A stretch of DNA of 64,000 nt, taken from NCBI RefSeq assembly GCF_017308075.1, contig NZ_JAFKFX010000026.1, forward strand, positions 186,001-250,000, read 5' to 3'. Position 1 is the first letter of the stretch, and each line of letters begins with the position of its first letter. This document shows positions 35,952 to 52,038 of the stretch, piece after piece. The position numbers were made by a program, and so were the translations under genes. The notes under the pieces were generated by a model that saw nothing but the letters and a program-made list of their open reading frames with translations, ran no database searches and was not told where the DNA came from. Origin of the DNA: Allobosea sp. (GTDB lineage: Bacteria > Pseudomonadota > Alphaproteobacteria > Rhizobiales > Beijerinckiaceae).

Positions 35952-36410
35952 ATGTCGGGGTCCGACCCTTCCCACGCCATCGCGGCCGAGCCCGAAGCGG
36001 AGAGCTACGACCTCTCCGAACAGGTCGGCTTCATCCTGCGCCAGGCGATCCAGCGCCATGTCTCGCTGTTCAACGAGATCATGGGGCCGGAACTGACGCC
36101 GACGCAGTGGGCGGTGCTGTCGCGGCTCTATCTCGAAGGCGGCAGCTCGCAGAATCTGCTCGGGCGCCAGACGGCGATGGACGCGGCGACGATCAAGGGC
36201 GTGGTCGACCGGCTGATCAAGCGCAAGCTGGTGCACACCACTGCCGACCCCGATGACGGGCGGCGCGTCATCGTGCAGCTGACCGAGGCCGGCCGGGCCT
36301 ATACCCGCGAATTGATGCCGAAGGCCGAGACCGTCACCAAGGTGACGCTGGCGCCGCTGGCGACGAGCCAGCGCACGACGCTGCTCTCGCTGCTTAAGCA
36401 GTTGCGCTGA
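35952..36410 (+). CDS. nicR: MarR family transcriptional regulator, probable NicR-type repressor of the nicotinate genes
   Basis: A 152-residue MarR protein. It has YDLSEQVGFILRQAIQRH at the N-terminus, then ELTPTQWAVLSRLYLEGGSS, the recognition helix region MDAATIKGVVDRLIKRKLVH and wing TTADPDDGRRVIVQLTEAG. In Pseudomonas putida the MarR-type NicR represses nicotinate genes and is released by 6-hydroxynicotinate; this protein has the same size and a similar N-terminal segment and sits beside the nic cluster, ending 19 bases from the convergent phosphorylase-kinase gene. No operator copy was found before its own start, so the link to the palindromes at 39-54 kb is inference. Confidence 0.75.
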   Translation: MSGSDPSHAIAAEPEAESYDLSEQVGFILRQAIQRHVSLFNEIMGPELTPTQWAVLSRLYLEGGSSQNLLGRQTAMDAATIKGVVDRLIKRKLVHTTADPDDGRRVIVQLTEAGRAYTRELMPKAETVTKVTLAPLATSQRTTLLSLLKQLR

Positions 36411-36429: not shown

Positions 36430-38472
36430 CTATCTGATCACGAAGCAGGCGCTCTGCGCCGCCAGCGCCCGTGCCTCCTCGAGATCGCTCGAGGCGCTGG
36501 CATGGATCGCAAAGAGCGGATCGCCGATCGCGACGCTGTCGCCGACGCTGCGGCGGAGATCGATGCCGGCGGCCTTGTCGAAAGGCGCGCCGGCGCGCCG
36601 GGCAATGCCGGCGACGGCCCAGCCATCGATCTCGGTGACCGTGCCGGCCTGCTCGGCGCGAACGGTATGGACCAGCAGCCCCGGCATCACCGGCGGCTCG
36701 CGGCGTCCCTGCGCCGTGACGATGCGCTCGAAGGCCGACCGCGCCGCGCCCGAGCGCAGCAATTCTTCGGCGCGCGCGCGTCCGGCCTCGACCGAACGCA
36801 GCGCCGGGTCCCAGGCCAGGATGCGGCCGGCGAAGAACAGCGCCTTGGCGACGAGATCGGCGGGGGCCTGCGGGTCGTTGTCGAGCGCCCAGGCGACGTC
36901 GCGGCATTCCAGCGCCGGGCCGATGCCGCGCCCGATCGGCCGGGTGCCATCGGTCGGGAAGGCCTCGACGACGAGGCCGAGCCCGCGCCCGACCGTCTCG
37001 AACAGGGCGGCGAGATCGGCGGCCTCGTCCTGCGATTTAAGCTTGGCGCGCGGGCCATAGGGCAGGTCGACGATCACATGGGTCGAGCCGGCCGTCTTCT
37101 TCTTCGACAGGATCGAGGCGACGGACCAGCGATTGGAATCGATGCCGAGCGGCCGTGTGATCGCGTTCATCACGTCGTCGACGACGGAATGGTTCAGCCG
37201 GCCGTTCCAGGCGATGCAGGCGCGGGCTTTCTCGACGCAGGCGCGCAGTTCCGCCGGGGTGAGCTCGACATCGGCGAGCGCCTCCATCGCATCGGCCGTG
37301 CCGGCGGCCGAGGTGATGGCGCGCGACGAGGTCTTCGGCATCAGGAAGGCGCCATGGGCGGCGATGATCGGCACCACGATCAGCGTGATCCGGCTGCCGG
37401 GAATGCCGCCCATCGAATGCTTGTCGACAACGATCTTGTCGGACCAGCTGATCTGCTGGGCGAAACGGGTGCGGACGCGGGCGAGCGAGACGACCTCGTC
37501 ATCGCTGAGCTTCTGCGTCGCCGCGACGAGGAAGGCCGCGACCTCGCCATCGGGATAGCGGGATTCGACGATGTCGCGGATCAGCGTGTGATACTGCGCC
37601 TCCGAGAGCGCCCCGCCCTGGATCTTGCGAGTCAGTGCGGCGCGGCTTTCCGGCGAGGGTGTACGCCGGATCGAGACCTCAGTGCCCTCGGCCAGGCCGA
37701 GCTCGGCAAAGGCCTCGCTGGACAGGCCGATCTCGTCGGGGGCGAGCGCGGCGGGCAGGTCCGCGACCTGGATGTCGGAGCGGATGCTGGCGCCGGCGCC
37801 GGTGATCTCGATCCGACCCGGCCCGAGATAGTCGAAACCGTTGACGAGCTCGCCCTTGGCCGGGAGCCAGGCGCAATGGGCCCGCCCGGCGAAGACCGGC
37901 AGGCGGCGCAGGCGCAAGGTGTTGGCGGCCGATTCGACTGCGGCGACGAAGCGCTCGATCCCGGTTTCCGGGCTCTGATCATTGCAGACGGTGACCGTGC
38001 GGATGCCGTCCGGCCAGGGCTCGACCTTGCGGGCGAGCCTGTCGCCTATGGCGTTGCCCTGCTCGCGGCCGCGTCCGGCGATGCGGGCCGCCAGGATCTC
38101 GGCCGGTGCCGTGACCTCGACGATGACGAAACGCGGCAGCAGCGCCGCCAGTTCGGCGATGACGGCGCGCGAGCCATTGGCGATGACGTGGCGGCCGTTC
38201 TCGATCGCGCCCAGCAGGCTACGGGGCAGGCCATAGCGCAGGCCATGGGCGCTCCAGCCGATGAGGAAATCGCCTGCGGCCTCGCGTGCCGCGAATTCGG
38301 CATCCGTCGCCGCCTCATGCGCCTCGCCGGGCGAGCCGGCGGGGCGGGTGATGACGCGCCTGGCGAAGACATAGCGCCCGGTTGGCTCCAGGACCTGCCT
38401 GGCGCCGTCGATCAAGGTGTCCTTGCCGCCGCCGCTGGGGCCGACGACAAAGAAGAACGTTCCCGGGCGCAT
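36430..38472 (-). CDS. Fusion of PhnN-type ribose-1,5-bisphosphokinase and archaeal-type nucleoside-monophosphate phosphorylase
   Basis: A 680-residue two-domain protein. Residues 1-183 are PhnN: Walker A GPSGGGKD (11-18), FARRVITRPA, and GEAHEAATDAEF to WSAHGLRYGLP, which match ribose-1,5-bisphosphokinase. Residues about 188-680 are a thymidine-phosphorylase-fold enzyme of the archaeal AMP-phosphorylase type: an N-terminal small domain, DKHSMGGIPGSRITLIVVP, and MPKTSSRAITSAAGTADAME. The expected chemistry is NMP + Pi to base + ribose 1,5-bisphosphate, then ATP-dependent conversion to PRPP by the first domain. The frame runs to 38595 but MRPGTFFFVVG at 38472 is the real start, seven bases after nadC. 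No phn, RuBisCO or R15P isomerase genes are near. I know of no characterised protein with this fusion. Confidence 0.85.
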   Translation of the reverse strand: MRPGTFFFVVGPSGGGKDTLIDGARQVLEPTGRYVFARRVITRPAGSPGEAHEAATDAEFAAREAAGDFLIGWSAHGLRYGLPRSLLGAIENGRHVIANGSRAVIAELAALLPRFVIVEVTAPAEILAARIAGRGREQGNAIGDRLARKVEPWPDGIRTVTVCNDQSPETGIERFVAAVESAANTLRLRRLPVFAGRAHCAWLPAKGELVNGFDYLGPGRIEITGAGASIRSDIQVADLPAALAPDEIGLSSEAFAELGLAEGTEVSIRRTPSPESRAALTRKIQGGALSEAQYHTLIRDIVESRYPDGEVAAFLVAATQKLSDDEVVSLARVRTRFAQQISWSDKIVVDKHSMGGIPGSRITLIVVPIIAAHGAFLMPKTSSRAITSAAGTADAMEALADVELTPAELRACVEKARACIAWNGRLNHSVVDDVMNAITRPLGIDSNRWSVASILSKKKTAGSTHVIVDLPYGPRAKLKSQDEAADLAALFETVGRGLGLVVEAFPTDGTRPIGRGIGPALECRDVAWALDNDPQAPADLVAKALFFAGRILAWDPALRSVEAGRARAEELLRSGAARSAFERIVTAQGRREPPVMPGLLVHTVRAEQAGTVTEIDGWAVAGIARRAGAPFDKAAGIDLRRSVGDSVAIGDPLFAIHASASSDLEEARALAAQSACFVIR

Positions 38473-38479
38473 GGTCTGA

Positions 38480-39313
38480 TCAGGCTTCGTCGAGGCCGAT
38501 GTCGACGGCGGGTGCCGACTGGGTGATCTTGCTGGTCGAGATATAGTCGACGCCGGTCTGGGCGATCGGACCGATCGTGTCGATGCGGATGCCACCGGAG
38601 GCCTCGACCTTGGCGCGGCCGGCGATCAGCCCGACCGCCTTGGTCATGTCGGCGACCGACATGTTGTCGAGCATGATCACATCGGCGCCGGCTTTGACGG
38701 CCTCCTCGACCTGTTCGAGCCGGTCGCATTCGACCTCGAGCTTGGTCAGCACCGGCAGCGTCTTGCGGGCGCGCTCGACGGCGGCGGTGATGCTGCCGCA
38801 CACGGCGATATGATTGTCCTTGATCATCACGCCGTTATCGAGGCCGAGGCGATGATTGAGGCCGCCGCCGCAGGTCACGGCATGCTTCTCCATCATGCGC
38901 AGGCCGGGCGTGGTCTTGCGGGTGTCGATCAGCCGCGCCTTGGTGCCGGCGATGGCGGCGACATAGCGCGCGGTCTCGTTGGCGATGCCCGAAAGGCGCT
39001 GGGCGATGTTGAGCGCGGTGCGCTCGGCGGTCAGCACGCTGCGCGCGGCGCCTTCGATCTCCATCAGGATGGCGCCCTTCTCGACCTTGTCGCCATCCTT
39101 GACCAGCAGCTTCACCTTGAGCTCGGGATCGTAGCGCTTGAAGACACGGGCGGCGACCTCGATGCCGGCGACGATCATCGGCTCGCGGGCGTTCATGTGG
39201 AACTTACCGGTCTCGTCCGGCTCGATCATGACCTGCACGGTCAGGTCGCAGGCGCCGATATCCTCGGTCAGCCAGAGATCGATCAGGCGATCCGTCGCAA
39301 AGCTGTCGTACAT
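38480..39313 (-). CDS. nadC: Nicotinate-nucleotide pyrophosphorylase (quinolinate phosphoribosyltransferase)
   Basis: A 277-residue NadC. Signatures are LTEDIGACDLT near the N-terminus, AERTALNIAQRLSGIANET (about residues 95-113), RLIDTRKTTPGLRMMEKHAV (about 128-147) with the substrate-binding RKTTPG, CGGGLNHRLGLDNGVMIKDN (150-169) and IMLDNMSVADM and VEASGGI for PRPP and magnesium binding. It converts quinolinate and PRPP to nicotinate mononucleotide, CO2 and PPi. It is not with nadA/nadB but is coupled to a phosphorylase-kinase fusion and preceded by a nic-type operator, which suggests a catabolic copy. ModD is a related alternative but no molybdate genes are present. Confidence 0.92.
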   Translation of the reverse strand: MYDSFATDRLIDLWLTEDIGACDLTVQVMIEPDETGKFHMNAREPMIVAGIEVAARVFKRYDPELKVKLLVKDGDKVEKGAILMEIEGAARSVLTAERTALNIAQRLSGIANETARYVAAIAGTKARLIDTRKTTPGLRMMEKHAVTCGGGLNHRLGLDNGVMIKDNHIAVCGSITAAVERARKTLPVLTKLEVECDRLEQVEEAVKAGADVIMLDNMSVADMTKAVGLIAGRAKVEASGGIRIDTIGPIAQTGVDYISTSKITQSAPAVDIGLDEA

Positions 39314-39384: not shown

Positions 39385-39402
39385 TTATTTGTATACGAAT
39401 AA
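39385..39402. promoter_or_regulatory. Nic-type operator a (before nadC)
   Basis: TTATTTGTATACGAATAA, centred between 39393 and 39394, is palindromic with one mismatched pair (TTATTTGTA/TACGAATAA). It lies about 72 bases upstream of the nadC start and carries the shared core TTTGTATACGAA. Together with the site at 39619-39638 it frames the divergent nadC/hnr promoter region, whose other 250 bases show no gene. Confidence 0.7.
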
Positions 39403-39618: not shown

Positions 39619-39638
39619 TCATTTGTATACAAATGATA
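39619..39638. promoter_or_regulatory. Nic-type operator b (before hnr)
   Basis: ATCATTTGTATACAAATGAT is a perfect 20-bp palindrome, the best in the window. It ends 28 bases before the ATG of hnr, so a bound protein would block the promoter or early transcription, as expected for a repressor such as a MarR protein. Confidence 0.8.
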
Positions 39639-39666
39639 TGGCCGGAAGTGACGGCGAGGGTTGACG

Positions 39667-41157
39667 ATGAGCCTGGAGGAAACGGCCACGGCCACGGCCG
39701 CCGACGACAAGATTCGCTGCGATGCCTGTCCGGTCATGTGCTACATCAAGCCGGGCGCGGTCGGTGCCTGCGACCGCTATGGCAATGTCGACGGCAATCT
39801 CGTCCGGGTCGATCCGCATGTGATGCTCGACCGCACCATCGATCAGGGCGGCGAGTTGGTTTCCTTCGCCGGCCCGCGTGAATGGGATGGCGACATCCTG
39901 CACCAGCCCGGCACCTTCGTCACGGCGATCGGCGCCGGCACGACCTATCCCGACTACAAGCCCGCGCCCTTTATCGTCTCTTCCGAGGTCGACGGCGTCG
40001 ACATGGTCACCGTCGTGACCGAGGGCATCTTCAGCTATTGCGGCGTCAAGGTGAAGATCGACACCGACCGCTTCCTCGGCCCGGAGACCGCGATCGTGCG
40101 CGTCGAGGGCGAGGCGGTCGGCCATGTCACTTCGGGCGAATACGGCTCACAGATGCTGTCGCTCGGCGGCGTTCACCACCTGACCGGCGGCTCGAAGAAG
40201 GAGGGCCGCGTCACCTGCGACGCGCTGCTCCAGCTCAGCAACGGCAAGGCGGTCGAGCTTACGATCGATGGCGGCGAGACCGTCATCGTCCAGGCCGGCA
40301 AGCCGCCGATCGTCAACGGCGTCGAGGAAAGCCGGATGCGCGTCGGCTGCGGCTCGGCGACGATCGGCATCTTCGCCAAGCAATGGCATGGCAAGGTCGA
40401 CGAGGTCGTGGTCGTCGACGACCACATCACCGGCGTGCTCTCGGAGCACCAGGCCGGCAAGCTGCTCGGCATGCCGGCGACGGGCCTGAAGATGAAGGGG
40501 CGGCGCTCGACGCCCGGCCGCTATTTCCAGGTCGCGCAACCCGGCACCGGCTGGGGCGGTACCAATATCAGCGATCCCCTGACCATTCTCGGGCCGTTCG
40601 ATCCGAAGGTCGCCTATCCCGGCCTGCGCCTGCTGATGGTCTCGACCACCGGCGAGCACGCCGCCTATTACGAGCTCGACGAGAAGCTCGTACCGGTCGA
40701 GATGCAGATGCCGGAGCGGCTGGTCGAGCCGGTCGAGCGCATCGCCGAGAATTGCGAGCCGGCGCTTTCGACCGTGCTGTTTATCGGCGGCGCCGGCGGT
40801 TCGCTGCGGGCCGGCGTCACCGAGAATCCCGTCAGGCTGACGCGCTCGGTCAAGGACGCGCTGACCTATGTCACCTGCGGCGGCGCACCGGTCTATATCT
40901 GGCCGGGCGGCGGCATCACCTTCATGGTCGACGTCACCCGCCTGCCCGAGAACGCCTTCGGCTATGTGCCGACGCCGGCCCTGGTCGCGCCGCTCGAATT
41001 CACCATGAAGCTCTCCGACTATCAGGAGCTCGGCGGGCATATGGACCATGTCCGGCCGCTTTCTGAGCTCAACGCCGACGGCCGGCTGAAGCTGCCGCAG
41101 CGGCTCGACAATCCCTGGCCGCTGGCGCCGGAGCGGATACGCCGCTCGCACGGCTGA
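39667..41157 (+). CDS. hnr: 6-hydroxynicotinate reductase
   Basis: A 496-residue protein of the family annotated as 6-hydroxynicotinate reductase, named after the Eubacterium barkeri enzyme that reduces 6-hydroxynicotinate to 1,4,5,6-tetrahydro-6-oxonicotinate with reduced ferredoxin. The N-terminus has an iron-sulfur-type cysteine pattern, RCDACPVMCYIKPGAVGACD (C-x2-C-x3-C-x9-C, about residues 18-35). Later parts include GVHHLTGGSKKEGRVTCDAL, VGCGSATIGIF and GGAPVYIWPGGGITFMVDV. ATG 39667 is favoured over TTG 39661 because GCGAGGG gives correct spacing. First gene of an operon with UPF0280 and two AA_synth genes. The assignment rests on family recognition plus the nicAB, ena and ferredoxin neighbours. 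Confidence 0.85.
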   Translation: MSLEETATATAADDKIRCDACPVMCYIKPGAVGACDRYGNVDGNLVRVDPHVMLDRTIDQGGELVSFAGPREWDGDILHQPGTFVTAIGAGTTYPDYKPAPFIVSSEVDGVDMVTVVTEGIFSYCGVKVKIDTDRFLGPETAIVRVEGEAVGHVTSGEYGSQMLSLGGVHHLTGGSKKEGRVTCDALLQLSNGKAVELTIDGGETVIVQAGKPPIVNGVEESRMRVGCGSATIGIFAKQWHGKVDEVVVVDDHITGVLSEHQAGKLLGMPATGLKMKGRRSTPGRYFQVAQPGTGWGGTNISDPLTILGPFDPKVAYPGLRLLMVSTTGEHAAYYELDEKLVPVEMQMPERLVEPVERIAENCEPALSTVLFIGGAGGSLRAGVTENPVRLTRSVKDALTYVTCGGAPVYIWPGGGITFMVDVTRLPENAFGYVPTPALVAPLEFTMKLSDYQELGGHMDHVRPLSELNADGRLKLPQRLDNPWPLAPERIRRSHG

Positions 41158-41160: not shown

Positions 41161-42048
41161 ATGTTCGAGCCCCCCTCCGCGCGCCTGCTGCCAGACGGCA
41201 AGCGCCTGCTGCTCCAGCAGGGGCCGATCGACCTCGTCGTCGAGGCGACCGGCCCGGCGGCGGCGGTCGAGGCGGCCTATCGGGCGGCGATGCGGCGCTT
41301 CGACGGGCTGCTCGCGGAGCTCTGCGGCGAGCTTGCCCTGCTACGCTCGCCGGTGCGGGCGAACAGCCCGGTTCCGGAAGGGCCGGTCGCCCGGCGGATG
41401 CATCAGGCGGTCGCCCCCTTCGCCGGCAGGATCTTCATCACGCCGATGGCTGCTGTTGCCGGCTCGGTGGCGCAGGAAATCCTCGACGTCATGGTCGAGG
41501 CTGCGCCGCTGGCGCGTGCCTATGTCAATAATGGCGGCGACATCGCCCTGCATCTGGCCGATGGCGAGGCCTTCCGGATCGGCCTTGTGGAACGTCCGGA
41601 CCGGCCAAATCTCTTCGCCACCGCCAGCATCGCCGCCCGCGATCCGGTGCGCGGCATCGCGACCTCCGGCTATCTCGGCCGCAGCTTTTCACTGGGCATC
41701 GCCGAGGCGGTGACCGTGCTCGCCCCGAGCGCCGCCATGGCCGATGCGGCCGCGACCGTGATCGCCAATGCGATCGACCTGCCGGGCCATGCTGCGATCG
41801 AGCGCCTGCCGGCCGAGGCCATCCAGGTCGACAGCGATCTCGGCGCGCGCCTCGTCACCCGCAAGGTCGGACCGCTGACCGAGACCGAAATCGAAACGGC
41901 GCTCGCAGCCGGCCTCGCCGAGGCGCAGCACCTGCGCGGAGCCGGCCTGATCGTCGCCGCCGCGATGCATCTTCAGGGCGTGAGCCGGGCTCTCGCCACG
42001 CCTATGATCCTTCAAGAACAAGCCGAGAGGAGACTTGCCCGTGCCTGA
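41161..42048 (+). CDS. UPF0280 family protein, ApbE-like; possible flavin transferase for Hnr
   Basis: A 295-residue UPF0280 protein starting three bases after hnr. It carries ApbE-like patterns: YVNNGGDIALHLADG (about residues 120-134; ApbE proteins have a similar GGDI), RGIATSGYLGRSFSLGIAEAV (about 164-184) and TVLAPSAAMADAAATVIANA (about 185-204), like the C-terminal part of FMN transferases. The E. barkeri Hnr is reported to hold covalent flavin, so a role in flavinylating Hnr is a reasonable inference. No classical S/T-GAT flavinylation motif is obvious in Hnr (nearest is CGSATIG), so this remains open. The family's function is unknown. Confidence 0.8.
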   Translation: MFEPPSARLLPDGKRLLLQQGPIDLVVEATGPAAAVEAAYRAAMRRFDGLLAELCGELALLRSPVRANSPVPEGPVARRMHQAVAPFAGRIFITPMAAVAGSVAQEILDVMVEAAPLARAYVNNGGDIALHLADGEAFRIGLVERPDRPNLFATASIAARDPVRGIATSGYLGRSFSLGIAEAVTVLAPSAAMADAAATVIANAIDLPGHAAIERLPAEAIQVDSDLGARLVTRKVGPLTETEIETALAAGLAEAQHLRGAGLIVAAAMHLQGVSRALATPMILQEQAERRLARA

Positions 42049-42625
42049 GATCGTCGTGCGGAAATATGCCGTGACCGTGGAGGAGATCTTTCACGAGGGC
42101 GGCCCGGCCGCGTCCGTGCCGCTGAAGCGCGGCGCGGCGCTGGCGGTGATCGCCAATCCTTACGCCGGTCGCTATGTCGAGGACATCCAGGGCTTCATGG
42201 ATGATCTCAAGCCCTTCGGCCTCGCCATGGCGCGGCGCCTGCTCGCGGCGATGGGCGGCGACGTCAAGGCGATCCAGGGCTATGGCAAGGGTGCCATCGT
42301 CGGCGCCGCCGGCGAGATCGAGCATGGCGCGCTCTGGCATGTGCCGGGTGGCTATGCGATGCGCGAACTGCTGGGGGACGCCAAGGCGATCGTGCCTTCG
42401 ACCAAGAAGGTCGGCGGGCCGGGCACGCGGCTCGATATTCCGGTCACCCATGTCAACGCCTCCTATGTCCGCAGCCATTTCGACGCCTTCGAGATCGGCA
42501 TCACCGACGCGCCCAGGGCCGACGAACTGCTGCTCGCGCTGGTGATGACGACGGGTTCACGCATCCATGCCCGCGTCGGCGGCCTGAAGGCGAGCGAGAT
42601 CAAGGGCGAGGACGGGCTGAGATGA
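42041..42625 (+). CDS. AA_synth (DUF1185) family protein, first of a tandem pair
   Basis: A 194-residue protein of the amino-acid-synthesis (PF06684) family, for which no reaction is firmly known. It contains RGAALAVIANPYAGRYVEDI, QGYGKGAIVGAAGEIEHGAL, YVRSHFDAFEIGITDAPRAD and ends VGGLKASEIKGEDGLR. Start is GTG 42041 after GAGAGGAGA; it overlaps UPF0280 by eight bases and the next gene by four. It is a paralogue of its neighbour at roughly half identity by eye. In a nicotinate operon it may act after ring opening, or form a hetero-oligomer with the second copy; this is inference. Confidence 0.8.
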   Translation: MPEIVVRKYAVTVEEIFHEGGPAASVPLKRGAALAVIANPYAGRYVEDIQGFMDDLKPFGLAMARRLLAAMGGDVKAIQGYGKGAIVGAAGEIEHGALWHVPGGYAMRELLGDAKAIVPSTKKVGGPGTRLDIPVTHVNASYVRSHFDAFEIGITDAPRADELLLALVMTTGSRIHARVGGLKASEIKGEDGLR

Positions 42626-43206
42626 AGGCTTCCATCCGCAAGATCGTCACCATACTCGACGAGACCCATTCCGAGATGGGCCAGCCCGTCGCGCCGGCGA
42701 TCCGCCGGGTCGCGGCGGTGGCGGTGATCGCCAATCCCTTCGCCGGCAAATACCAGCCCGATCTCTCCGAGCTGATCGAGATCGGCGAGGAGCTCGGCGA
42801 CCTGCTCGGCCGCTATGCGCTGAAGGCGCTCGGCATCGAGGGCGAGGCCGTGCAGGGCTATGGCAAGGCCGCCGCCGTCGGTGAGGACGGCGAATATGAG
42901 CATGCGGCGGCGATCCTGCACCCGAAGCTCGGCGCGCCGCTGCGCAAGCTGCTCGGCAAGGCGCCGGCTCTGATCCCGTCCTCGAAGAAGCGCGGTTCGC
43001 TCGGCGTCGTCCTCGACATTCCGCTCGGCCACAAGGCCGGCGCCTATGTCCGCAGCCATTTCGACGGCATGGAGGTCCGCATTCCCGATGCGCCGCGCGC
43101 CGGCGAGATCGTCGTCGCGGTGGCGCTGACCAGCGGCGGTCGCCCGCTGCCGCGCGTCGGCGGCCTGACCCATGACGAGGTCAAGGGCGAGGACGGGCTG
43201 CGCTGA
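42622..43206 (+). CDS. AA_synth (DUF1185) family protein, second of a tandem pair
   Basis: A 194-residue paralogue of the preceding protein, starting at an ATGA overlap. It shares AAVAVIANPFAGKY, VQGYGKAAAVGEDGEYEHAA, YVRSHFDGMEVRIPDAPRAG and the ending VGGLTHDEVKGEDGLR. Conserved His, Asp and Lys positions (EHA, RSHFD, KGEDG) occur in both copies, so both may be catalytically competent. Last gene of the hnr operon; repeat A copy 4 follows and then the convergent nicB. Confidence 0.8.
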   Translation: MKASIRKIVTILDETHSEMGQPVAPAIRRVAAVAVIANPFAGKYQPDLSELIEIGEELGDLLGRYALKALGIEGEAVQGYGKAAAVGEDGEYEHAAAILHPKLGAPLRKLLGKAPALIPSSKKRGSLGVVLDIPLGHKAGAYVRSHFDGMEVRIPDAPRAGEIVVAVALTSGGRPLPRVGGLTHDEVKGEDGLR

Positions 43207-43332: not shown

Positions 43333-46300
43333 TCAGCGTCCGGCTTTCCGCGCCTTCGTGACCGCCTCTTCAATCCCCTCCCAGCCCGGCTTCCCCCGGG
43401 CGAAGCGGCCGCGCAGATAGCCGGCGAGCTCGGCGATCTGGCGGTCGTCGAGCGCCGTCGCGAAGGAGGGCATCGAGCCGATGCCATGCTGGCCGCCTTC
43501 CAGCAGCATGTTGACGAGATTGGTCGGCGTCGCGGCATGGAGCTTCGAGGACAGGCCGAGCGCCGGCCCGGCATTGACCAGCGCCGCCGTGCGACCGGGC
43601 TCGTGGCAGGCGGCGCAGGCGCCCTGATAGAGGCGTGCGACCGGCGAGGTCGCGGGATTTGCCGCGGCGCTGGTGGCGAGCTCGATCCGGCTGGCGCGGG
43701 CTTCGATCTCGGCGTCCGGCAGCGGCTCGCTGAGTGAGGCGAGATAGCTCGCCATCGCCTTGATATCGGCATCCGGCAGCTCTTTGAGCTCCGCGATCAC
43801 CGGCGCCATCGGCCCGGCTGCGGCGCCGTGATGCTGCGAGGTTCCGGTGCGCAGATAAGCGTAGAGTTCGGCCTCGCTCCAGGGTAGCGGCCCGGCCGAG
43901 ATCCTGGTCAGGGCCGGCGCCTCCCAGCCCTCGGCCTCGCCACCGGAAAGATAGGCGCGGCCGCCGCGCTCGGCGCCGAGCGCGTTGCGCGGCGTGTGGC
44001 AGGCGCCGCAATGGCCGAGCCCGTCGACGAGATAGCGGCCGCGATTCCACTCGTCCGAGCGGGCTGGTTCCGGCTTGAGCTCGCCCTGCGGCCGGAACAG
44101 CAGGTTCCAACCGGCTAACAGCGGGCGCAGATTGACGGGGAAGACCATCCGGCTCGGCTGGTTCTCCTGCCTGACCGCCGGCTGCGACATCAGGAAGGCG
44201 TAGAGCGCCTGGAGGTCGGCCTCGCTGGTTTTCGCGTAGCTCGCATAGGGGAAGGCCGGGTAGAGATGGCGGCCGTCGCGGTGGATGCCGGCGCGCATCG
44301 CCCGCTCGAAGGCCGGATAGGACCAGTTGCCGATGCCGGTTTCCGGATCGGGTGTGATGTTGGTGGTCATCACCATGCCGAAAGGCGTCTCGAGCGCGAG
44401 ACCGCCGGCATAGGGCACGCCGTCCTTCACCGTATGGCAGACGGCGCAGGCGCCGAGCGCCGCGAGCTGGCGGCCTCTCTCGATCGTCGCCGCCGACCAG
44501 GTCGCGGGATCGGGCCGGGCGATCGGAGCGATCGACGGCGCGAGCGCGAAGGAGGCGGCGGCGAAGGTCGCTGCACCGGCAAAGGCGGCGCCGAGCTTGC
44601 TCCACAGGCCGAAGCGGCGGGATTTGGCGGAAAGCTGCGGCGCGGCCGGTGCTGACGGCGGTAAGCGCCCGAGGCCGGCGAGCACGCGCTCGGGCGTCAG
44701 CGGCAATTCGCGAAAGCGCACGCCGGTCGCGTCAAAGACGGCGTTGACGATGGCGGCGGCGCTGGGGACGGAAGCCGACTCGCCGGCGCCGAGTGGCGCC
44801 TCGTGCTGCTTGTCGAGGAGCAGCACGTCGATCGCCGGCAGTTCCGGGAAGGTCAGGACGGGGTAGGCGCCCCAGTCGCGGGCGGCGACGGCGGTGGTCT
44901 GCGAGAAGCTCACCTCCTCGCGCAGCACACGACTGGTCGACTGCAGGACATTGCCATGGACCTGATGGGTGACGCCGGCTGGGTTGACGACCATGCCGGT
45001 GTCCTGGCCGACGGTGACGCGGCTGACCGTGACCTCGCCGGTCGTGCGGTTGACCGCGACATCGGCGACCCAGGCGGCCCAGGCGGCGCCGACGCCCGGC
45101 CAGCTGCCATGGACATAGCGCGCCTGCGCGAAGCCGCGGCCGCGCAGGATCTCGCCATATTCCTCCATGCGCGGGCCGATATGCGGCTGCCAATTGGCGC
45201 GTTCGGCGGTGGCACGCGTCAGCTCGGCGGCGCGCTCGTCATTGATGTGGCGCAGGCGGAACTCGACGGGGTCGACGCCGGCCTCATGGGCGAGCTCGTC
45301 GATATAGCTCTCATGGGCGAAGACGTTGGGCATGGCCGAGACGCCGCGCAGCCAGGATGCGCGGACGATCGGCGGCATGTCATAGGCCGTCAGCCGCATG
45401 TTCTCGTAGTCGTAGGAGGGCACCGCGGTGCGGTCGCCCATGCGCAGCGTCGCCGGCTGGTTCGGGATCCGCCCGGTCAGCAGCAGCGCGAGCGTCGGCG
45501 CCGCGTTCGACGGATACCAGGTGTGGAAGTCATAGGCCGGCAGCGAGCCGCCGGGGCCGAGGCCGCCCTTGATGTCGATCAGCTGGGCGGCGCCCTTCGG
45601 CTCCCAGAGATGTTCCTGCTCGCGGGTGAGCTGGACGCGCACCGGGGCGCCGACGGCGCGCGAGAGCAGCACCGCATCGGCGGCGACGTCGTCGGCGCAG
45701 TTGCGACCATAGCAGCCGGCGGCTTCGTGGCGGATGATGTCGATCTGCTCGCGCGGCAGGCCGGTGAGCACGGCGAGGTCGTTCTGCAGCGGAAACGGGT
45801 TCTGGCTGCCGCTCCAGACGGTGACGCCGTCGGCGCGCACATCGGCGACGGCGCAGGACGGGCCGATCGAGCCATGCATGTGGTAGGGCCAGACATAGGT
45901 GCGGTCGAGCCGCTTCTCGAGCTTGCCGAGCGCAGTTTCGACATCGCCTTCGTCGACCAGCAGGCGCGGCGTCGAGGGATGAGTGCGCAGGGCCTGGGCG
46001 ACATCGGAGAGGTCCGGCGGCGTGAACGAGCGCCACTCGGCCTTCAGGGCGAGCGCCGCTTCCGCCGCCTGCTCCTCGCGCTCGGCGACGATGCCGATGA
46101 AATCGCCCTCGACGACGAGGGCGCGGATGCCGGGAATGCCGGCGAGCGAGTCGCGATCGACTGCGATCAGGCTGCGCCCGACGAAGTCGCCGGCATCCAT
46201 GCCGGAATAGGGCGGGCGGACGACACGGCCATGCAGCATGCCGGGCACGCGCACGTCATGGACATAAACGAAGCTGCCATCGACCTTGGCGGGGATGTCG

Positions 46301-46896
46301 ACCCGCGCCACCGATCGGCCGATCAGCCTGTGATGGTCGATCGGCTTGAACTGCGCGCTCTCGGCCAGCGGCAGCAGCAGGCGCTCATTGGCGAGCAGCG
46401 TGTCGAGTCCGATCGCCGGGATGTCGGCCTCGCCGCGATAGAGCCGGCCGTCGCGCAGGCTGATCTCATCCTCGCTGCAGGTAAGCGCCGCGGCGGCGAG
46501 CCCGATCAGCCTTGTGCGGATCTGGGTCGCGCCGATCCGCATCGCCACCGAGGTGACCTGGATCGTCTCGCTGGCGATGGTCGCGCCCTGGTCGGGGGTA
46601 TCGGCGGTGTCACCGAGTACCATCTCGACGGCCTCGAAGGGAAAGTCGAGCTCCTCCGCCACCATCTGGGCGAGCGCGGTGCGGATGCCGGTGCCGAGAT
46701 CGACATGGCCGGAAAAGGCGAGAATGCGCCCTTCGGCCGTGAGGCAGACATGCAGGTCGAGCGCGTCTTCGGAACTGTCCCCGGCGGGCGCGCCCTTGCG
46801 CGGCGCGACGACGGCGATGATCCCGCCGCGCCGCAGCAGCGCCCGGCGGGAGAGGGGAGGCGGCGGCGCGCTGTCGTTCATCGCGCTGTGGTTCAT
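43333..46896 (-). CDS. nicB: Nicotinate dehydrogenase large subunit (molybdenum subunit fused to three c-type hemes)
   Basis: A 1187-residue NicB-type protein. Residues about 1-760 are a xanthine-dehydrogenase-like molybdopterin subunit with a twin-arginine-like start (SRRALLRRGG), GHVDLGTGIRTALAQMVAEE, GSQNPFPLQNDLAVLTGLP, WLRGVSAMPNVFAHESYIDE and the catalytic Glu in APLGAGESASVPSAA. Then a hydrophobic anchor LGAAFAGAATFAAASFALAP (about 780-800) and three heme sites CAVCH (817), CGACH (963) and CAACH (1094). This matches NicB of nicotinate 6-hydroxylase in domain order and size: water supplies the oxygen and electrons go through the hemes to the respiratory chain. It overlaps nicA by four bases. 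Isoquinoline 1-oxidoreductase is a close family alternative. Confidence 0.9.
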   Translation of the reverse strand: MNHSAMNDSAPPPPLSRRALLRRGGIIAVVAPRKGAPAGDSSEDALDLHVCLTAEGRILAFSGHVDLGTGIRTALAQMVAEELDFPFEAVEMVLGDTADTPDQGATIASETIQVTSVAMRIGATQIRTRLIGLAAAALTCSEDEISLRDGRLYRGEADIPAIGLDTLLANERLLLPLAESAQFKPIDHHRLIGRSVARVDIPAKVDGSFVYVHDVRVPGMLHGRVVRPPYSGMDAGDFVGRSLIAVDRDSLAGIPGIRALVVEGDFIGIVAEREEQAAEAALALKAEWRSFTPPDLSDVAQALRTHPSTPRLLVDEGDVETALGKLEKRLDRTYVWPYHMHGSIGPSCAVADVRADGVTVWSGSQNPFPLQNDLAVLTGLPREQIDIIRHEAAGCYGRNCADDVAADAVLLSRAVGAPVRVQLTREQEHLWEPKGAAQLIDIKGGLGPGGSLPAYDFHTWYPSNAAPTLALLLTGRIPNQPATLRMGDRTAVPSYDYENMRLTAYDMPPIVRASWLRGVSAMPNVFAHESYIDELAHEAGVDPVEFRLRHINDERAAELTRATAERANWQPHIGPRMEEYGEILRGRGFAQARYVHGSWPGVGAAWAAWVADVAVNRTTGEVTVSRVTVGQDTGMVVNPAGVTHQVHGNVLQSTSRVLREEVSFSQTTAVAARDWGAYPVLTFPELPAIDVLLLDKQHEAPLGAGESASVPSAAAIVNAVFDATGVRFRELPLTPERVLAGLGRLPPSAPAAPQLSAKSRRFGLWSKLGAAFAGAATFAAASFALAPSIAPIARPDPATWSAATIERGRQLAALGACAVCHTVKDGVPYAGGLALETPFGMVMTTNITPDPETGIGNWSYPAFERAMRAGIHRDGRHLYPAFPYASYAKTSEADLQALYAFLMSQPAVRQENQPSRMVFPVNLRPLLAGWNLLFRPQGELKPEPARSDEWNRGRYLVDGLGHCGACHTPRNALGAERGGRAYLSGGEAEGWEAPALTRISAGPLPWSEAELYAYLRTGTSQHHGAAAGPMAPVIAELKELPDADIKAMASYLASLSEPLPDAEIEARASRIELATSAAANPATSPVARLYQGACAACHEPGRTAALVNAGPALGLSSKLHAATPTNLVNMLLEGGQHGIGSMPSFATALDDRQIAELAGYLRGRFARGKPGWEGIEEAVTKARKAGR

Positions 46897-47387
46897 GGCG
46901 TGCCCGTCTCGCCGGTCCGGGCGCGCGCGACGGCGAGCATCACGGCCCTGACGATCTCGACATGGGTGCCGCAGCGGCAGAGATTATAGCGCAGCGCCTC
47001 GCGGACCTGCGCCTCGCTCGGCGCCGGGTTGACGGCCAGGAAGGCCTTGGCGGTCATGATCATGCCGTTGATGCAGTAGCCGCATTGCGCGGCCTGGGCG
47101 TCGATGAAGGCCTGCTGGACCGGATCGGGGCCCGCGCTGCCAGCGAGTCCTTCGAGCGTGACGATCTCGCGCTCTTCCGCCAGCCGGACCGGCAGGGCGC
47201 AGGCGCGGGCGGCGATGCCATCGATCAGCACGGTGCAGGCGCCGCATTCGCCGAGGCCGCAGCCGAATTTCGGGCCGTTCAGCGAAAGGTCGTTGCGCAG
47301 GAAGAAGAGCAGGGGGGTATGCGGCTCGCCCTCGACGAGGTGATCGGCGCCATTGACGCGCAGGGCGAAGCGCCGCGTCGTTCTCAT
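46893..47387 (-). CDS. nicA: Nicotinate dehydrogenase small subunit, [2Fe-2S] protein
   Basis: A 164-residue iron-sulfur subunit with two [2Fe-2S] clusters: the plant-type motif GCGLGECGACTVLIDG (about residues 47-62) and the helical motifs CGYCINGMIMTAKAFL (about 100) and LCRCGTHVEI (about 138). The frame runs to 47840, but the extension lies in repeat A and the promoter; MRTTRRFALRVNG at 47387 is the start. Together with NicB it hydroxylates nicotinate at C6. An operator-like palindrome lies 59 bases upstream. The local gene order (nicA then nicB, ATGA overlap) supports one transcript. Confidence 0.93.
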   Translation of the reverse strand: MRTTRRFALRVNGADHLVEGEPHTPLLFFLRNDLSLNGPKFGCGLGECGACTVLIDGIAARACALPVRLAEEREIVTLEGLAGSAGPDPVQQAFIDAQAAQCGYCINGMIMTAKAFLAVNPAPSEAQVREALRYNLCRCGTHVEIVRAVMLAVARARTGETGTP

Positions 47388-47445
47388 GGCTCGTCCGGGC
47401 GGGGCGAGGCGCCTTTGATCGCGATTGTCGTCACGTGACCCAAAT

Positions 47446-47638: not shown

Positions 47639-48835
47639 TCAGTGCTGGACGGAGGGGATCTTCTCGGCCGGCGGGGTGTTGCGGCTGATGCCGCTGCGGA
47701 CGATGCCGTCGATCACGATCATGCCGATGCCGGGCAGGTCGCCGAGCTGGATCGAGTCGAGGAAGTTCCTGCCGGCGGAATGCTGGGCCTTGTCCATGAA
47801 GACGAAATCGGCGCTGCGCCCGACCTCGATCAGCCCGCAATCGAGGCTGCGCATCCGCGCCGTGTTGCCGGTGGCGAAGCAGAAGGCCACTTCAGCCGGG
47901 ACATCGCCGAGCGAGGACAGCATCGAGACCATGCGGACGATGCCGAGCGGCTGGACGCCGGAGCCGGCGGGGCCGTCGGTGCCGAGGATGACGCGCTGCA
48001 ATTCGCCCATTTCGCGGGCGACGCGCAGCGTGTAGAGCGCGGCGCGCTCATTGCCGTTATGGACGAGTTCGAGGCCGCGCTTGCAGCCCTCGCAGATGCA
48101 GCGGATCTCCTTGTCGGGCAAGGCGGTATGGCCGCCATTGATATGGCCGACGACATCGGTGTCGGCCTCGAGCACCACGTCGGCACCGATCAGGCCGGAG
48201 CCGGGAATCGAGGGGCCGCCGGTGTGGATAGTCGACTGAATCCCATATTTGCGGGCCCAGGCCACCATCTGCTTGGCCCGCGCGCCGTCCTTGACGCCGC
48301 CGAGGCCGACCTCGCCGAGCAGCTTCACGCCGGCATCGGCCAGGTCCTTGAAGTCCTGCTCGACCATGCCGGGCTCGATCACCGGCGCGCCGGCATGGAT
48401 CTTGACGCCGCCGGGGCGAAAGGCGGTGAAGGCGCGCTGGGCATAGATCGCCATGGCCTTGAGCCCGACAATGTCCTTGGGCCGGCCGGGGGTGTGGACC
48501 TCGCCGGCCGAGATCATGGTGGTGACGCCGCCATGCATGGTCGAATCGATCCAGCCGATCTGGTTCTGGCGCGGCGTCCAGTCGCCGGCGACGGGGTGGA
48601 CATGGCTGTCGATCAGGCCGGGCGAGAGCACGGTGCCGTTGGCGTCGATGACGGTGTCGGCCTGGTCGGTGTCGAGATCCTTGAAGCGGCCGACCGCGGC
48701 GATCCTGCCGCCGATGGCGACGAGCGTGTCGGCGTCCAGGATCGGGCGCTCAATGTCGCCGGAGAGCATCAAGCCGATATTCTTGATCACCAGCTTGTGG
48801 TTGGCGCCGACCGTCGCCGTCTGCAGTTCAGCCAT
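47639..48835 (-). CDS. ena: Enamidase (tetrahydro-6-oxonicotinate hydrolase), amidohydrolase superfamily
   Basis: A 398-residue amidohydrolase that closely resembles the E. barkeri enamidase I know: KNIGLMLSGDIERPILDADT, SPGLIDSHVHPVAGDWTPRQ, STMHGGVTTMISAGE, TPGRPKDIVGLKAMAI, HTGGPSIPGSG, GHINGGHTALPDKE and SRNTPPAEK near the end. It should hydrolyse 1,4,5,6-tetrahydro-6-oxonicotinate to 2-formylglutarate and ammonia. Metal ligands expected: His pair in HVHP, His in IHTGG, His in GHINGG and Asp in GTDGPAG. The frame extends to 48985, but MAELQTATVGANHK at 48835 is the better start. It diverges from the ferredoxin gene; both may be controlled by the palindrome at 48934. Confidence 0.93.
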   Translation of the reverse strand: MAELQTATVGANHKLVIKNIGLMLSGDIERPILDADTLVAIGGRIAAVGRFKDLDTDQADTVIDANGTVLSPGLIDSHVHPVAGDWTPRQNQIGWIDSTMHGGVTTMISAGEVHTPGRPKDIVGLKAMAIYAQRAFTAFRPGGVKIHAGAPVIEPGMVEQDFKDLADAGVKLLGEVGLGGVKDGARAKQMVAWARKYGIQSTIHTGGPSIPGSGLIGADVVLEADTDVVGHINGGHTALPDKEIRCICEGCKRGLELVHNGNERAALYTLRVAREMGELQRVILGTDGPAGSGVQPLGIVRMVSMLSSLGDVPAEVAFCFATGNTARMRSLDCGLIEVGRSADFVFMDKAQHSAGRNFLDSIQLGDLPGIGMIVIDGIVRSGISRNTPPAEKIPSVQH

Positions 48836-48933
48836 CTCGTTCCGCCCCGTAAGCCTTCGCCGCCTCCTGTGAGGCCTGCGATATCCTCTCCGTCCCGATC
48901 CCGATTGACAAGTGTGATCGAAGGCGGCATATC

Positions 48934-48947: not shown

Positions 48948-48994
48948 AAGTTTTGCATCTGCCTTCCCAGCCTGTCAAGCGGCAAGGATCACGC

Positions 48995-49324
48995 ATGGCC
49001 TTTGCAGTCACCAGCGCCTGCATCCGTTGCAAATACATGGATTGCGTCGAGGTCTGTCCCGTCGACTGCTTCTATGAAGGCGAGAACATGCTCGTCATCC
49101 ATCCTGACGAGTGCATCGATTGCGGCGTCTGCGAGCCGGAATGCCCGGCCGAGGCGATCGTCGCCGACAATGCCGAGGGGGCGGCCGCGTGGCTCGCGCT
49201 CAACGCCAGGCTGGCGCCGCTCTGGCCGAACATCACCGAGAAGCGCGATCCGCCGGCCGATGCGGATGATTGGAAGGGAATACCGGACAAACTCGACCTT
49301 CTTTCCGAACGCGCGGCGATGTGA
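48995..49324 (+). CDS. fdxA: 7Fe/8Fe ferredoxin, probable electron donor to Hnr
   Basis: A 109-residue ferredoxin with two cluster motifs near the N-terminus: [17 protein letters not shown] (about residues 9-25) and [12 protein letters not shown] (about 40-51), the order of [3Fe-4S][4Fe-4S] FdxA-type proteins, followed by a C-terminal tail ending SERAAM. The frame starts earlier, but [12 protein letters not shown] at 48995 after AAGGA is the clear start. It is followed 59 bases on by a ferredoxin-NADP reductase and lies within the nic regulon, so it probably carries electrons from NADPH to 6-hydroxynicotinate reductase. Confidence 0.92.
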
Positions 49325-49383
49325 TAGCTGCCTGCCTGCGTTCGATGATCGGCTTTTTCCTGGGCTAACCGAGGAACGACGAG

Positions 49384-50157
49384 ATGAGCAATTTCTACGA
49401 GGAGCGCGTGCTCAGCGTCCATCACTGGACCGATACGCTCTTCAGCTTCACGACGACCCGCGACACGACGTTCCGCTTCAAGAACGGCCAGTTCACGATG
49501 ATCGGCATCAAGGTCGACGAGAAGCCGTTGCTGCGCGCCTATAGCGTCGTCAGCACCAATTACGACGAGAACCTCGAATTCTTCTCGATCAAGGTGCCGG
49601 ACGGGCCGCTGACCTCGCGCCTGCAGAACCTCAAGGTCGGCGACCCCATCATCGTCGGCAAGAAGGCGACGGGCACGCTGGTGCTCGACAATCTCAAGGA
49701 CGGCAAGCGCCTGTTCCTGCTCGGCACCGGCACCGGCCTTGCGCCCTTCCTGTCGCTGATCCGCGATCCCGAGACCTATGAGCGCTATGAGAAGGTGGTG
49801 CTGGTGCATGGCTGCCGGCAGGTGGCCGAGCTCGCCTATGGCGAACAGATCACCCAGCACCTGCCCAATGACGAGTTCCTCGGCGAGATGATCCGCGAGC
49901 AGCTGATCTACTATCCGACGGTGACGCGCGAGCCCTTCCGCAATCGTGGCCGCATCACCGATCTGCTGACCTCGGGCCAGCTCTTCGAGGATATCGGCCT
50001 GGGCCCGTTCGATCCCGCCAGCGACCGCTTCATGCTCTGCGGCAGCCCGCAAATGCTGGTCGACCTCAAGAAGATCTTCGAGGACCATGGCATGGAAGAA
50101 GGCAACCATGGCGAGGCCGGCGACTATGTGATCGAGCGCGCCTTCGTCGAGCGCTGA
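49384..50157 (+). CDS. fpr: Ferredoxin-NADP+ reductase
   Basis: A 257-residue FAD enzyme of the bacterial FPR group. The FAD motif is RAYSVVSTNYDENLEFFSIK (about residues 50-69; RAYS-type), then GPLTSRLQNLKVGD, the NADP region LLGTGTGLAPFLSLIRDPE (about 116-134), CGSPQMLVDLKKIFEDHGM and the C-terminal EGNHGEAGDYVIERAFVER. Known FPRs reduce ferredoxin or flavodoxin with NADPH. Here it is linked to the ferredoxin gene and the hnr system, which needs low-potential electrons. A strong terminator follows directly. Confidence 0.95.
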   Translation: MSNFYEERVLSVHHWTDTLFSFTTTRDTTFRFKNGQFTMIGIKVDEKPLLRAYSVVSTNYDENLEFFSIKVPDGPLTSRLQNLKVGDPIIVGKKATGTLVLDNLKDGKRLFLLGTGTGLAPFLSLIRDPETYERYEKVVLVHGCRQVAELAYGEQITQHLPNDEFLGEMIREQLIYYPTVTREPFRNRGRITDLLTSGQLFEDIGLGPFDPASDRFMLCGSPQMLVDLKKIFEDHGMEEGNHGEAGDYVIERAFVER

Positions 50158-50550: not shown

Positions 50551-51282
50551 CTAGCGATGTGTCAGCTGGCGGTTGAACAGCATCATCAGGCTGTTGCAGC
50601 TCACCGCGAAGACGGTCAGCAGGAGCGCGATCGCCATGATCGTGTCGATCTGGCCGAGATTGATGGCGCTGGTCAGAAGGAAGCCGAGACCGCGCTGCGA
50701 GGCGAACATCTCGCCGATCAGCACGCCGAGCAGGGTCAGCGAAAAGCCGAGGCGCACGCCCGAGATGATCTCCGGCAGGATCGCCGGCAGGATCACGGTG
50801 AAGGCCGATTGCGAAGGCGAAAGGCGCATCACCTGCGAGGTGCGCCGGTAGACCGGCTTCATCTGGCGGATCGCGTTCATCGAGAACAGGGTGATCGGGA
50901 TCAGCCCGTGCATCACGCCGAAGGCGATCTTGGCGGAGATGCCGAGGCCGAAGCAGAGCAGCACCAGCGGGTAGAGCACGACCTTGGGGATAGAATAGAG
51001 CGTGGTCAGGATCGGCTCGGCGACGTTGCCGGCGAGCTTGCGGACCCCGAGTACGATGCCGAGGCTGATGCCGCCGAGCAGCGAGAGGAGGAAAGCGGCG
51101 ACGAAGGCCCGCATCGTTTCGCTGATGTTGAGCCAGAACTCGCCGGTGCCGAGCAGCGAGCCGAGCTTGACGACGGTCTGCAATGGCGAGGCGATGGCCG
51201 AGGAGCCGACGAGGAGATGGAAGCCCTGCCAGAGCAGGATGAAGGTCAAAAGGACGATGAGAGTGCCGGCGAGTCTGGGCAT
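50551..51282 (-). CDS. ABC transporter permease, SsuC/TauC/ThiX type
   Basis: A 243-residue inner-membrane permease with about six hydrophobic segments (the first is LAGTLIVLLTFILLWQGFHL). The family EAA loop region is YRRTSQVMRLSPSQSAFTVILPAILPEIISG (partly: SPSQSAFTVILPAILPEI), then RLGFSLTLLGVLIGEMFASQ. It pairs with the permease just upstream (nine-base gap) and the ATPase and NMT1-type receptor, completing an importer for a small aromatic or heteroaromatic anion. In the nic regulon, nicotinate, quinolinate or 6-hydroxynicotinate are likely substrates; this is inference. Confidence 0.9.
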   Translation of the reverse strand: MPRLAGTLIVLLTFILLWQGFHLLVGSSAIASPLQTVVKLGSLLGTGEFWLNISETMRAFVAAFLLSLLGGISLGIVLGVRKLAGNVAEPILTTLYSIPKVVLYPLVLLCFGLGISAKIAFGVMHGLIPITLFSMNAIRQMKPVYRRTSQVMRLSPSQSAFTVILPAILPEIISGVRLGFSLTLLGVLIGEMFASQRGLGFLLTSAINLGQIDTIMAIALLLTVFAVSCNSLMMLFNRQLTHR

Positions 51283-51291: not shown

Positions 51292-52038
51292 TCACCGCTG
51301 GCGGCGCGCCTGGAGGCGCCGGTCGATCATGTTGAGGATCGTGTTGACGATGGTGACGGTCACCAGCACGAGCAGGATCAGCGCGTACATGTGCCCGTTC
51401 TCGAACAGGTTGTAGGCATAGGCGATGGCGTAGCCGATCCCGGCGCCCGAGAGGATGAACTCCGAGGCGATCACTCCGATGAAGGAATAGGCGACCGAAA
51501 GCTTCACGCCGGTGAAGAGATAAGGCAGCGTCGCCGGCAGCTCGACGAGGAGCGCGGTCTTGGCCCGCGACATCCGGTAGATCTGCGCCGTCTTGCGCAG
51601 CACGCGCGGAATCCGGTCGAGCCCGTTCAGCGTCGCGGTGATCATCGAGACCACGGCGAGCAGCACGGCGATCGCGATGATCGAGGCCGAGCCGACGCCG
51701 AAGAGCGTGATGAAGATCGGATAGAAGACGAAGGTCGGGACGGCATAATAGCTCGCCAGAAGCGGCTCGAGCGCATGGCGCAGCGCCGGCAGCGAGTAGA
51801 TGATCAGGCCGGCGACGAAGCCGAGCACGATCGAGAGCGCCGTCGAGATGGCGATGTTGGTGAAGGTCGTCCGGATATCGGCCGAGAACTGGCCGGTGCG
51901 CAGGATCTCGGCGAGCTCGACCACCATCTGCGAGGGCGCCAGCATCACCATGCGGGGGATGACGCCGACCCGGCAGAGCAGCTCGACCAGGAGGATCATC
52001 GTCGCGACGACGATCAGGCGCAGCCATTTTTCCGACAT
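51292..52038 (-). CDS. ABC transporter permease, SsuC/TauC type
   Basis: A 248-residue permease. Segments include LIVVATMILLVELLCRVGVI and YYAVPTFVFYPIFITLFGVG, and the EAA-type loop runs RVLRKTAQIYRMSRAKTALLVELPATLPYLFTG (quoted in part: KTAQIYRMSRAKTALL). It starts three bases after the ATPase stop and is likely translated from the same messenger. Two different permeases instead of one homodimer is common in this NMT1-linked subfamily. Confidence 0.9.
   Translation of the reverse strand: MSEKWLRLIVVATMILLVELLCRVGVIPRMVMLAPSQMVVELAEILRTGQFSADIRTTFTNIAISTALSIVLGFVAGLIIYSLPALRHALEPLLASYYAVPTFVFYPIFITLFGVGSASIIAIAVLLAVVSMITATLNGLDRIPRVLRKTAQIYRMSRAKTALLVELPATLPYLFTGVKLSVAYSFIGVIASEFILSGAGIGYAIAYAYNLFENGHMYALILLVLVTVTIVNTILNMIDRRLQARRQR

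Follow-up and report, generated by a model that had tools for sequence, protein, structure and literature searches.

A nadC-linked fusion of PhnN and an NMP phosphorylase suggests a PRPP-recycling route from quinolinate to nicotinate

The window analysed here, a stretch of 64,000 nucleotides from the genome of Allobosea sp. (G000 in our set), carries two minus-strand genes in close succession. The first, nadC (38480..39313, 277 aa), encodes a quinolinate phosphoribosyltransferase with QRPTase N and C domains, which passes TIGR00078 with 329.8 bits against a cut-off of 198.4. Downstream of it, after a gap of 7 bases (38473-38479), lies a gene (36430..38472) whose product, 680 aa from its ATG, is a fusion of two enzymes. 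Its residues 4-179 (37936..38463, minus strand) are a PhnN (ribose 1,5-bisphosphokinase) domain that passes TIGR02322 (165.7 bits, cut-off 156), and residues 186-675 (36448..37917, minus strand) are an NMP phosphorylase domain that passes the subfamily model PRK04350 (588.9 bits, cut-off 434). A sequence-only reading of this DNA had described nadC and a 680-residue fusion seven bases apart, and its coordinates, strands and families all hold. The best solved relative of the fusion is the AMP phosphorylase 4ga5 (E 1e-81), while the score against the AMP phosphorylase equivalog TIGR03327 stays below the cut-off (390.7 bits, cut-off 535). An AlphaFold model of the fusion has a mean pLDDT of 73 and is poor at the active site, and because residues 424-449 fall below 50, no argument is drawn from the pocket; a Foldseek search with this low-confidence model returned the AMP phosphorylase fold (E 2.8e-41), repeating the sequence result.

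Genes for nicotinate degradation adjoin the pair, as that reading had stated. The hnr gene (39661..41157, plus strand) encodes 6-hydroxynicotinate reductase, a name borne by its relatives in several plasmid records, and its product had no match in Pfam, NCBIfam or PDB. It is followed by genes for a PRK04334-type hypothetical protein and two AA_synth (PF06684) proteins (41161..43206, plus strand). On the minus strand, a molybdopterin plus cytochrome c subunit and a 2Fe-2S subunit (43333..47396) form a pair that we take to be nicotinate dehydrogenase-like, and an amidohydrolase (47639..48910) is a candidate enamidase. A ferredoxin and an FAD/NAD-binding reductase (48953..50157, plus strand) likely supply electrons to Hnr. 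Convergent with the fusion is the gene for a MarR-family regulator (35952..36410, plus strand; Pfam MarR), which is 39.6% identical to a MarR protein encoded upstream of nadC at another locus, L059.

The sequence-only reading had placed a nic-type operator before nadC, and the operator-like palindrome there (39385..39402) is real: used as a search pattern, it has two further places in the window within 3 mismatches, upstream of hnr (39619..39636) and upstream of an ABC importer (53923..53940), where 0 were expected in 100 shuffles. Variant palindromes (TGTTTGCATACAAACA and others) stand upstream of nadC at L054, at L141 and at several loci linked to Hnr; for most nadC genes linked to TRAP or ABC importers, the upstream search found none. 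The MarR-family regulator is a candidate to bind these palindromes.

The importer that carries the third motif is the counterpart of importers adjoining the pair in other genomes. Its NMT1/THI5-type periplasmic binding protein (52884..53861, minus strand), a candidate for quinolinate import, is 63% identical to the one that follows the nadC-fusion pair in L059; the ATPase (52042..52854) is 71% identical to its counterpart in L060, and the two permeases (51292..52038 and 50551..51282), likewise on the minus strand, are 61% and 54% identical to theirs in L059. For 24 of 39 nadC-fusion pairs, the fetched flank contains a TRAP, ABC or TTT binding-protein transporter. The TTT protein of Variovorax is closest to Bug27 (2qpq, E 2.6e-136), reported to bind quinolinate at submicromolar concentrations (PMC11452294).

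We found 45 distinct full-length fusions, and nadC lies immediately upstream of 39 of them, which agrees with the co-occurrence that the sequence-only reading had proposed to survey, and the pairing recurs in Alpha- and Betaproteobacteria in differing surroundings. All 45 form one group in the phosphorylase tree (support 0.89). The 40 fusion-linked NadC sequences are at least 55.8% identical to one another vs at most 54.0% to 10 unlinked NadCs and look, by identity, like a type of their own, with low clade support (0.385, midpoint root). A second NadC occurs in 3 of 13 non-Bosea fusion genomes, beside nadA in two of them, and on a Paracoccus plasmid a nadC with 59% identity adjoins no fusion. 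The six fusions without an upstream nadC are one clade, located downstream of the petABC (cytochrome bc1) genes. Hnr occurs in all six of their genomes, once only as a contig-end fragment, and neither nadC nor NadA was found in them; the enzyme is therefore not tied to NadC everywhere, and another use or another source of substrate is to be expected there.

Comparison of 17 nadC-linked fusions with 32 non-redundant standalone phosphorylases separates family residues from altered ones. K351, S382, S383, R384, S453 and K457 are kept in every sequence of both sets, and we take S453 and K457 to correspond to Ser186 and Lys190 of E. coli thymidine phosphorylase. Roles for the conserved family residues in E. 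coli are described in PMC5238616. Position 439, in contrast, is E in 32/32 standalone enzymes and T, N or V in the nadC-linked fusions, and H428 and N436 are found in 17/17 of the latter vs 0/32 of the former, which makes positions 428, 436 and 439 candidates for the substrate site of the fusion. The petABC-linked fusions resemble the nadC-linked set at these three positions, so these residues may be a trait of the fusion family and not a sign of NaMN (nicotinate mononucleotide) as substrate.

The association with nicotinate degradation extends beyond the window. In 61 Bosea-group genomes, Hnr is present in 27 of the 28 with fusion-type nadC vs 8 of the 33 others (Fisher 3e-9, taking no account of kinship or shared ancestry), so that here the fusion is not, as the earlier reading had allowed it might prove, one that lives mainly without nic genes. 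One of the 27 copies, in G452, has an internal stop, and in 14 of these genomes hnr and the fusion-type nadC are not closely linked. Across an order-wide sample of 397 genomes, Hnr or NicC occurs in 12 of 14 fusion genomes vs 88 of 383 others (2e-6, uncorrected for kinship), five of the 12 being of the petABC-linked kind; for nadC-linked fusions alone the counts are 7/8 vs 93/389 (3e-4, likewise uncorrected). Nicotinate genes are thus far commoner with the fusion than elsewhere, the survey result that the earlier reading had looked for. The pair also occurs in G031, where Hnr was not found, and in G108, where neither Hnr nor NicC was found.

NadA is present in 3 of the 28 fusion-type Bosea-group genomes vs 7/7 with other nadC. 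Since it was not found in the remaining 25, G000 included (the search control was positive in 12/14), the quinolinate in fusion-type genomes probably comes from outside, and for G000 we reject a part for NadC in de novo NAD synthesis. G008, G014 and G443 have NadA together with NadC of the fusion type only, and NadC may therefore also serve NAD synthesis there.

We consider it likely that the module is a catabolic (or salvage) conversion of imported quinolinate into nicotinate. Quinolinate would enter via the dedicated importer, and NadC would combine it with PRPP to give NaMN, releasing CO2. The phosphorylase half of the fusion would then use phosphate to cleave NaMN, yielding nicotinate and ribose 1,5-bisphosphate, from which the PhnN half, with ATP, would form PRPP again. 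The predicted net reaction is quinolinate + Pi + ATP to nicotinate + CO2 + PPi + ADP, in which the phosphoribosyl group would play a catalytic part, and flow in this direction would deliver nicotinate to the Hnr route or, in other hosts, to the NicC route. The PRPP-recycling proposal of the sequence-only reading is supported by these data; its central chemistry, phosphorolysis of NaMN, is what we infer. To our knowledge, no activity on NaMN has been measured for the subfamily to which this phosphorylase belongs.

An unlikely alternative is that the fusion supplies PRPP for NAD salvage, phosphorolysing AMP, CMP and UMP so that PhnN-made PRPP lets NadC convert imported quinolinate into NaMN and on to NAD. 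PMC11452294, which in 2024 published the nadC-phnN adjacency, with bug27 orthologues beside both genes in Variovorax and Jezberella, comes close to this explanation: it reads the adjacency as NAD metabolism, and its main text does not contain the word 'phosphorylase'. The nearest PDB relative of the phosphorylase is moreover an AMP phosphorylase, and NadA was not found in most fusion-type genomes, so quinolinate could be their source of NAD. A salvage role gives no reason, however, to expect the link with hnr or nicC, and the small need for NAD should not require a dedicated PRPP enzyme; the base-site position 439, kept as E in standalone phosphorylases, is altered, and the AMP phosphorylase cut-off is not reached.

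Still less probable is a role in NAD or NaMN turnover, in which the fusion would degrade NaMN (or NMN) produced when pyridine nucleotides are recycled, returning base and PRPP, NadC being a neighbour for regulation only. Such a role would suit the petABC-linked clade, with fusion and Hnr where nadC was not found, but the adjacency to nadC in 39/45 and the importers near 24/39 pairs point to a substrate from outside.

The kinase half, which passes the PhnN cut-off, is akin to the PhnN of C-P lyase clusters, from which it differs in being fused and in having no phn neighbours. A second PhnN of the window's genome (G000:C42:118716) adjoins phnM and phnL. In the window and the fetched flanks of 44 other fusions, PhnM and a third phn-operon protein of G000 had no close counterpart, and PhnL matched at no more than 35% identity, as is usual between ABC ATPases; the earlier statement that no phn genes lie here stands, nor do the fusions occur mainly with such genes. 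With a regular phnN beside phnM and phnL elsewhere and none of these genes found beside the fusions, we reject a C-P lyase role. At 21 loci examined, standalone phosphorylase relatives have a PRPP synthetase homologue nearby in 19; the exceptions are L098 and the second copy of L124, the latter within the stretch fetched for it. No NadC match was found at L143-L157. These standalone loci fit an ordinary nucleotide salvage or phosphonate enzyme lying near nadC and nic genes by chance, an explanation we regard as very improbable given the recurrence of the nadC pairing across two classes in differing surroundings, the lack of phn genes beside the fusions and the genome's own C-P lyase phnN.

Archaeal AMP phosphorylase (4ga4, 4ga5, 4ga6) shares family and fold with the fusion's phosphorylase, and ribose 1,5-bisphosphate is the expected product; the fusion differs in its altered base-site residues and its score under the equivalog cut-off. 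Ring hydroxylation in soil bacteria degrades quinolinate directly, without a nucleotide intermediate, whereas the proposed module would pass through one. In the archaeal pentose bisphosphate pathway, as partly covered by PMC9700705, ribose bisphosphate goes to RuBP and RuBisCO; here it would go to PRPP via the fused PhnN. The Bordetella-type quinolinate salvage (nadQ-nadC-bug69; PMC11452294) likewise joins NadC to a quinolinate-binding periplasmic protein where de novo NAD synthesis is lacking; it aims at NAD, whereas the present system has a phosphorylase joined to PhnN and is accompanied by genes for nicotinate breakdown.

On balance, we lean towards a closed cycle in which an NaMN phosphorylase/PRPP kinase and a dedicated NadC clade use the phosphoribosyl group as a handle for decarboxylating quinolinate, in a module that has spread with exchangeable importers and feeds two nicotinate-degradation pathways. 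If so, a step of NAD biosynthesis would serve catabolism, with PRPP spent and remade and not consumed; a subfamily of phosphorylases that currently bears the annotation thymidine phosphorylase would gain an activity; nadC would be explained in genomes where quinolinate synthase was not found; and quinolinate importers could be named. In G723, from another class, an MFS gene, nadC, the fusion and NicC (closest to 5eow, E 1.3e-170) lie within one cluster.

On the minus strand of the window, nadC (38480-39313; above its curated family cut-off) is followed, 7 bases downstream, by a fusion gene of 680 residues (36430-38472), whose PhnN (residues 4-179) and phosphorylase (residues 186-675) domains each pass a curated profile cut-off; the AMP phosphorylase equivalog cut-off is missed by the fusion in the profile search. 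A MarR gene (35952-36410) is convergent with the fusion gene, and hnr, together with the genes after it, is divergent from nadC. The window's Hnr has no match in Pfam, NCBIfam or PDB; among its relatives in plasmid records, several carry the annotation 6-hydroxynicotinate reductase, the others being unannotated or hypothetical. Beyond hnr lie genes for a molybdopterin plus cytochrome c subunit, a 2Fe-2S subunit, a ferredoxin and a reductase. A palindrome 5′ of nadC is repeated 5′ of hnr and 5′ of an NMT1-type ABC importer (50.5-53.9 kb, 11-15 kb from nadC), the chance expectation being none. The coordinates and both domains, the recurring palindrome and the genes around hnr bear out the sequence-only reading, which had claimed a nadC and a 680-residue fusion 7 bases apart, an operator-like site before nadC and an adjoining nicotinate-degradation set. 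Upstream of an aminotransferase gene and the MarR gene, 26768-34573 holds TRAP genes, an HpaI-like aldolase and two hydantoinase-like ORFs (named by eye).

The best account of the pair, read from sequence, is a cycle in which NadC would convert quinolinate to nicotinate mononucleotide (NaMN), the phosphorylase would release nicotinate from NaMN, and the fused kinase (the PhnN half) would remake PRPP, the sugar-phosphate donor for NadC. Residues K351, S382, S383, R384, S453 and K457 of the fusion are kept and common to standalone relatives, which have no PhnN. Compared with 32 standalone phosphorylases, the fusions carry H428 in place of L (32/32), N436 in place of I or V, and N423 in place of G, while position 439, E in 32/32 of them, is T, N or V in 17 nadC-linked fusions; six fusions beside cytochrome bc1 genes (petABC-linked) follow the nadC-linked pattern at 428, 436 and 439. 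In the HMMER alignment, position 439 falls on an arginine of Bacillus subtilis pyrimidine-nucleoside phosphorylase that presumably corresponds to Arg171 of Escherichia coli thymidine phosphorylase. Arg171 of the E. coli enzyme is reported to touch the base substituent (PMC5238616). Loss of the acidic residue at 439 would fit a carboxylate-bearing base. Among the matches listed in open-access literature, no title or abstract dealt with NaMN phosphorolysis or a nadC-phosphorylase route; subscription papers are mostly outside this coverage, so the result is no proof of novelty.

Full-length fusions occur in 22/37 genomes of the window's genus and in 0/24 genomes of other families searched with it, in 14/397 genomes of an order sample and in 5/398 of a phylum sample (including L135, a locus completed from further sequence), and are also borne on two Betaproteobacteria plasmids and one Rhodobacterales plasmid. 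The survey proposed earlier upheld the link with nadC, which directly precedes 39 of 45 distinct full-length fusions; all 45 group together in the phosphorylase tree (support 0.89). The fusions of L096 and L135 have about 85-95 fewer residues aligned, apparently at the phosphorylase domain start. FRG-domain or FRG-like genes adjoin the pair in five loci (L034, 8012-8926; L095, 7484-8293; L096, 11924-12688; L123, 6485-7195; L135, 12031-12804), and in L134, whose cluster includes nicC and a molybdopterin enzyme gene, a weakly SIR2-like gene (7979-9184) lies directly 3′ of the fusion.

A published alternative places the genes in NAD metabolism, where PhnN would supply the PRPP. Among the 61 Bosea-group genomes, nadC is present in 35, never in two copies; it was not found in the other 26, and much of the group may therefore need to import a pyridine to make NAD. 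The fusion-linked type makes up 28 of the 35, the fusion following in each (cut by the contig end in G452). As the same survey bore out for hnr, Hnr accompanies the fusion-linked nadC in 27/28 genomes (the G452 copy has an internal stop) vs 8/33 others (Fisher 3e-9, kinship ignored). It lies within about 11 kb of the pair in 13/27 and elsewhere in 14/27, e.g. more than 2 Mb off in genome G010, so the association is more than mere linkage; the remote copies belong to a more divergent type (64-67% identity), which fusion-free genomes contain as well. The seven Bosea-group genomes with the other nadC have the quinolinate synthase NadA close by, and Hnr is absent from 7/7. NadA was detected in just 3/28 genomes with fusion-linked nadC, with no second nadC found near these three nadA genes. 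Outside the Bosea group, 12/13 fusion genomes have Hnr (nine, one a fragment) or NicC (four), with both in one; neither was found in G108. Hnr or NicC, assigned by similarity, occurs in 12/14 fusion genomes of the order sample vs 88/383 others, and in 7/8 vs 93/389 for nadC-linked fusions alone, p-values for co-occurrence taking no account of kinship. Genome G018, which has Hnr, carries a PhnN domain 54% identical to that of the fusion (L065, 3590-4135), possibly a remnant, without phosphorylase or nadC.

The 40 fusion-linked NadCs share at least 55.8% identity with one another and at most 54.0% with 10 unlinked NadCs, and form one clade with low support (0.385). Three genomes (G377, G262, G673) contain both kinds, the second copy adjoining nadA in G377 and G673. 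A counter-example is a Paracoccus plasmid nadC, 59% identical, that no fusion adjoins. On a conjugative Sphingobium plasmid (L195, 3664-10568), a different nadC, possibly another catabolic one, is flanked on one side by a Rieske-domain gene and on the other by a gene for a 2Fe-2S ferredoxin; a MarR gene and a binding-protein gene are also in its surroundings.

Importers lie in the examined flank of 24 of the 39 pairs (TAXI/TRAP 16, NMT1-type ABC 7, TTT binding protein 1), the window's stub L001 spanning only 5 kb in this count; of the 15 pairs with none of these three types, 13, among them the window, have hnr nearby and two (L134, L135) an adjoining MFS gene. The window's ABC importer is the counterpart of those in L034, L096, L047 and L058-L061, with 63% identity to the L059 SBP and 71% to the L060 ATPase. 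The Variovorax TTT binding protein has Bug27 as its closest relative. Bug27 and Bug69 are reported to bind quinolinate with submicromolar affinity, and in Variovorax and Jezberella orthologues of bug27 are reported to adjoin nadC and phnN (PMC11452294). A MarR gene lies in the examined flank of 21/39 pairs.

The remaining 6/45 fusions belong to one genus (g65) and lie 3′ of cytochrome bc1 genes, identified by Pfam for L127 and by clustering for the other loci (L128-L131, L133). Together they make up a clade (0.993) that lies within the nadC-linked fusions and shows that the fusion can exist without nadC; neither nadC nor NadA was found in the six genomes, all of which have Hnr (one a fragment). 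Standalone relatives have a PRPP synthetase homologue near in 19/21 loci examined (L143-L157, L062-L064, L099; the exceptions are L098 and the second L124 copy), which parallels the fusion in pairing a phosphorylase with a PRPP-forming enzyme. Of the 15 loci L143-L157, 8 have an MBL-fold gene close to the standalone phosphorylase as well.
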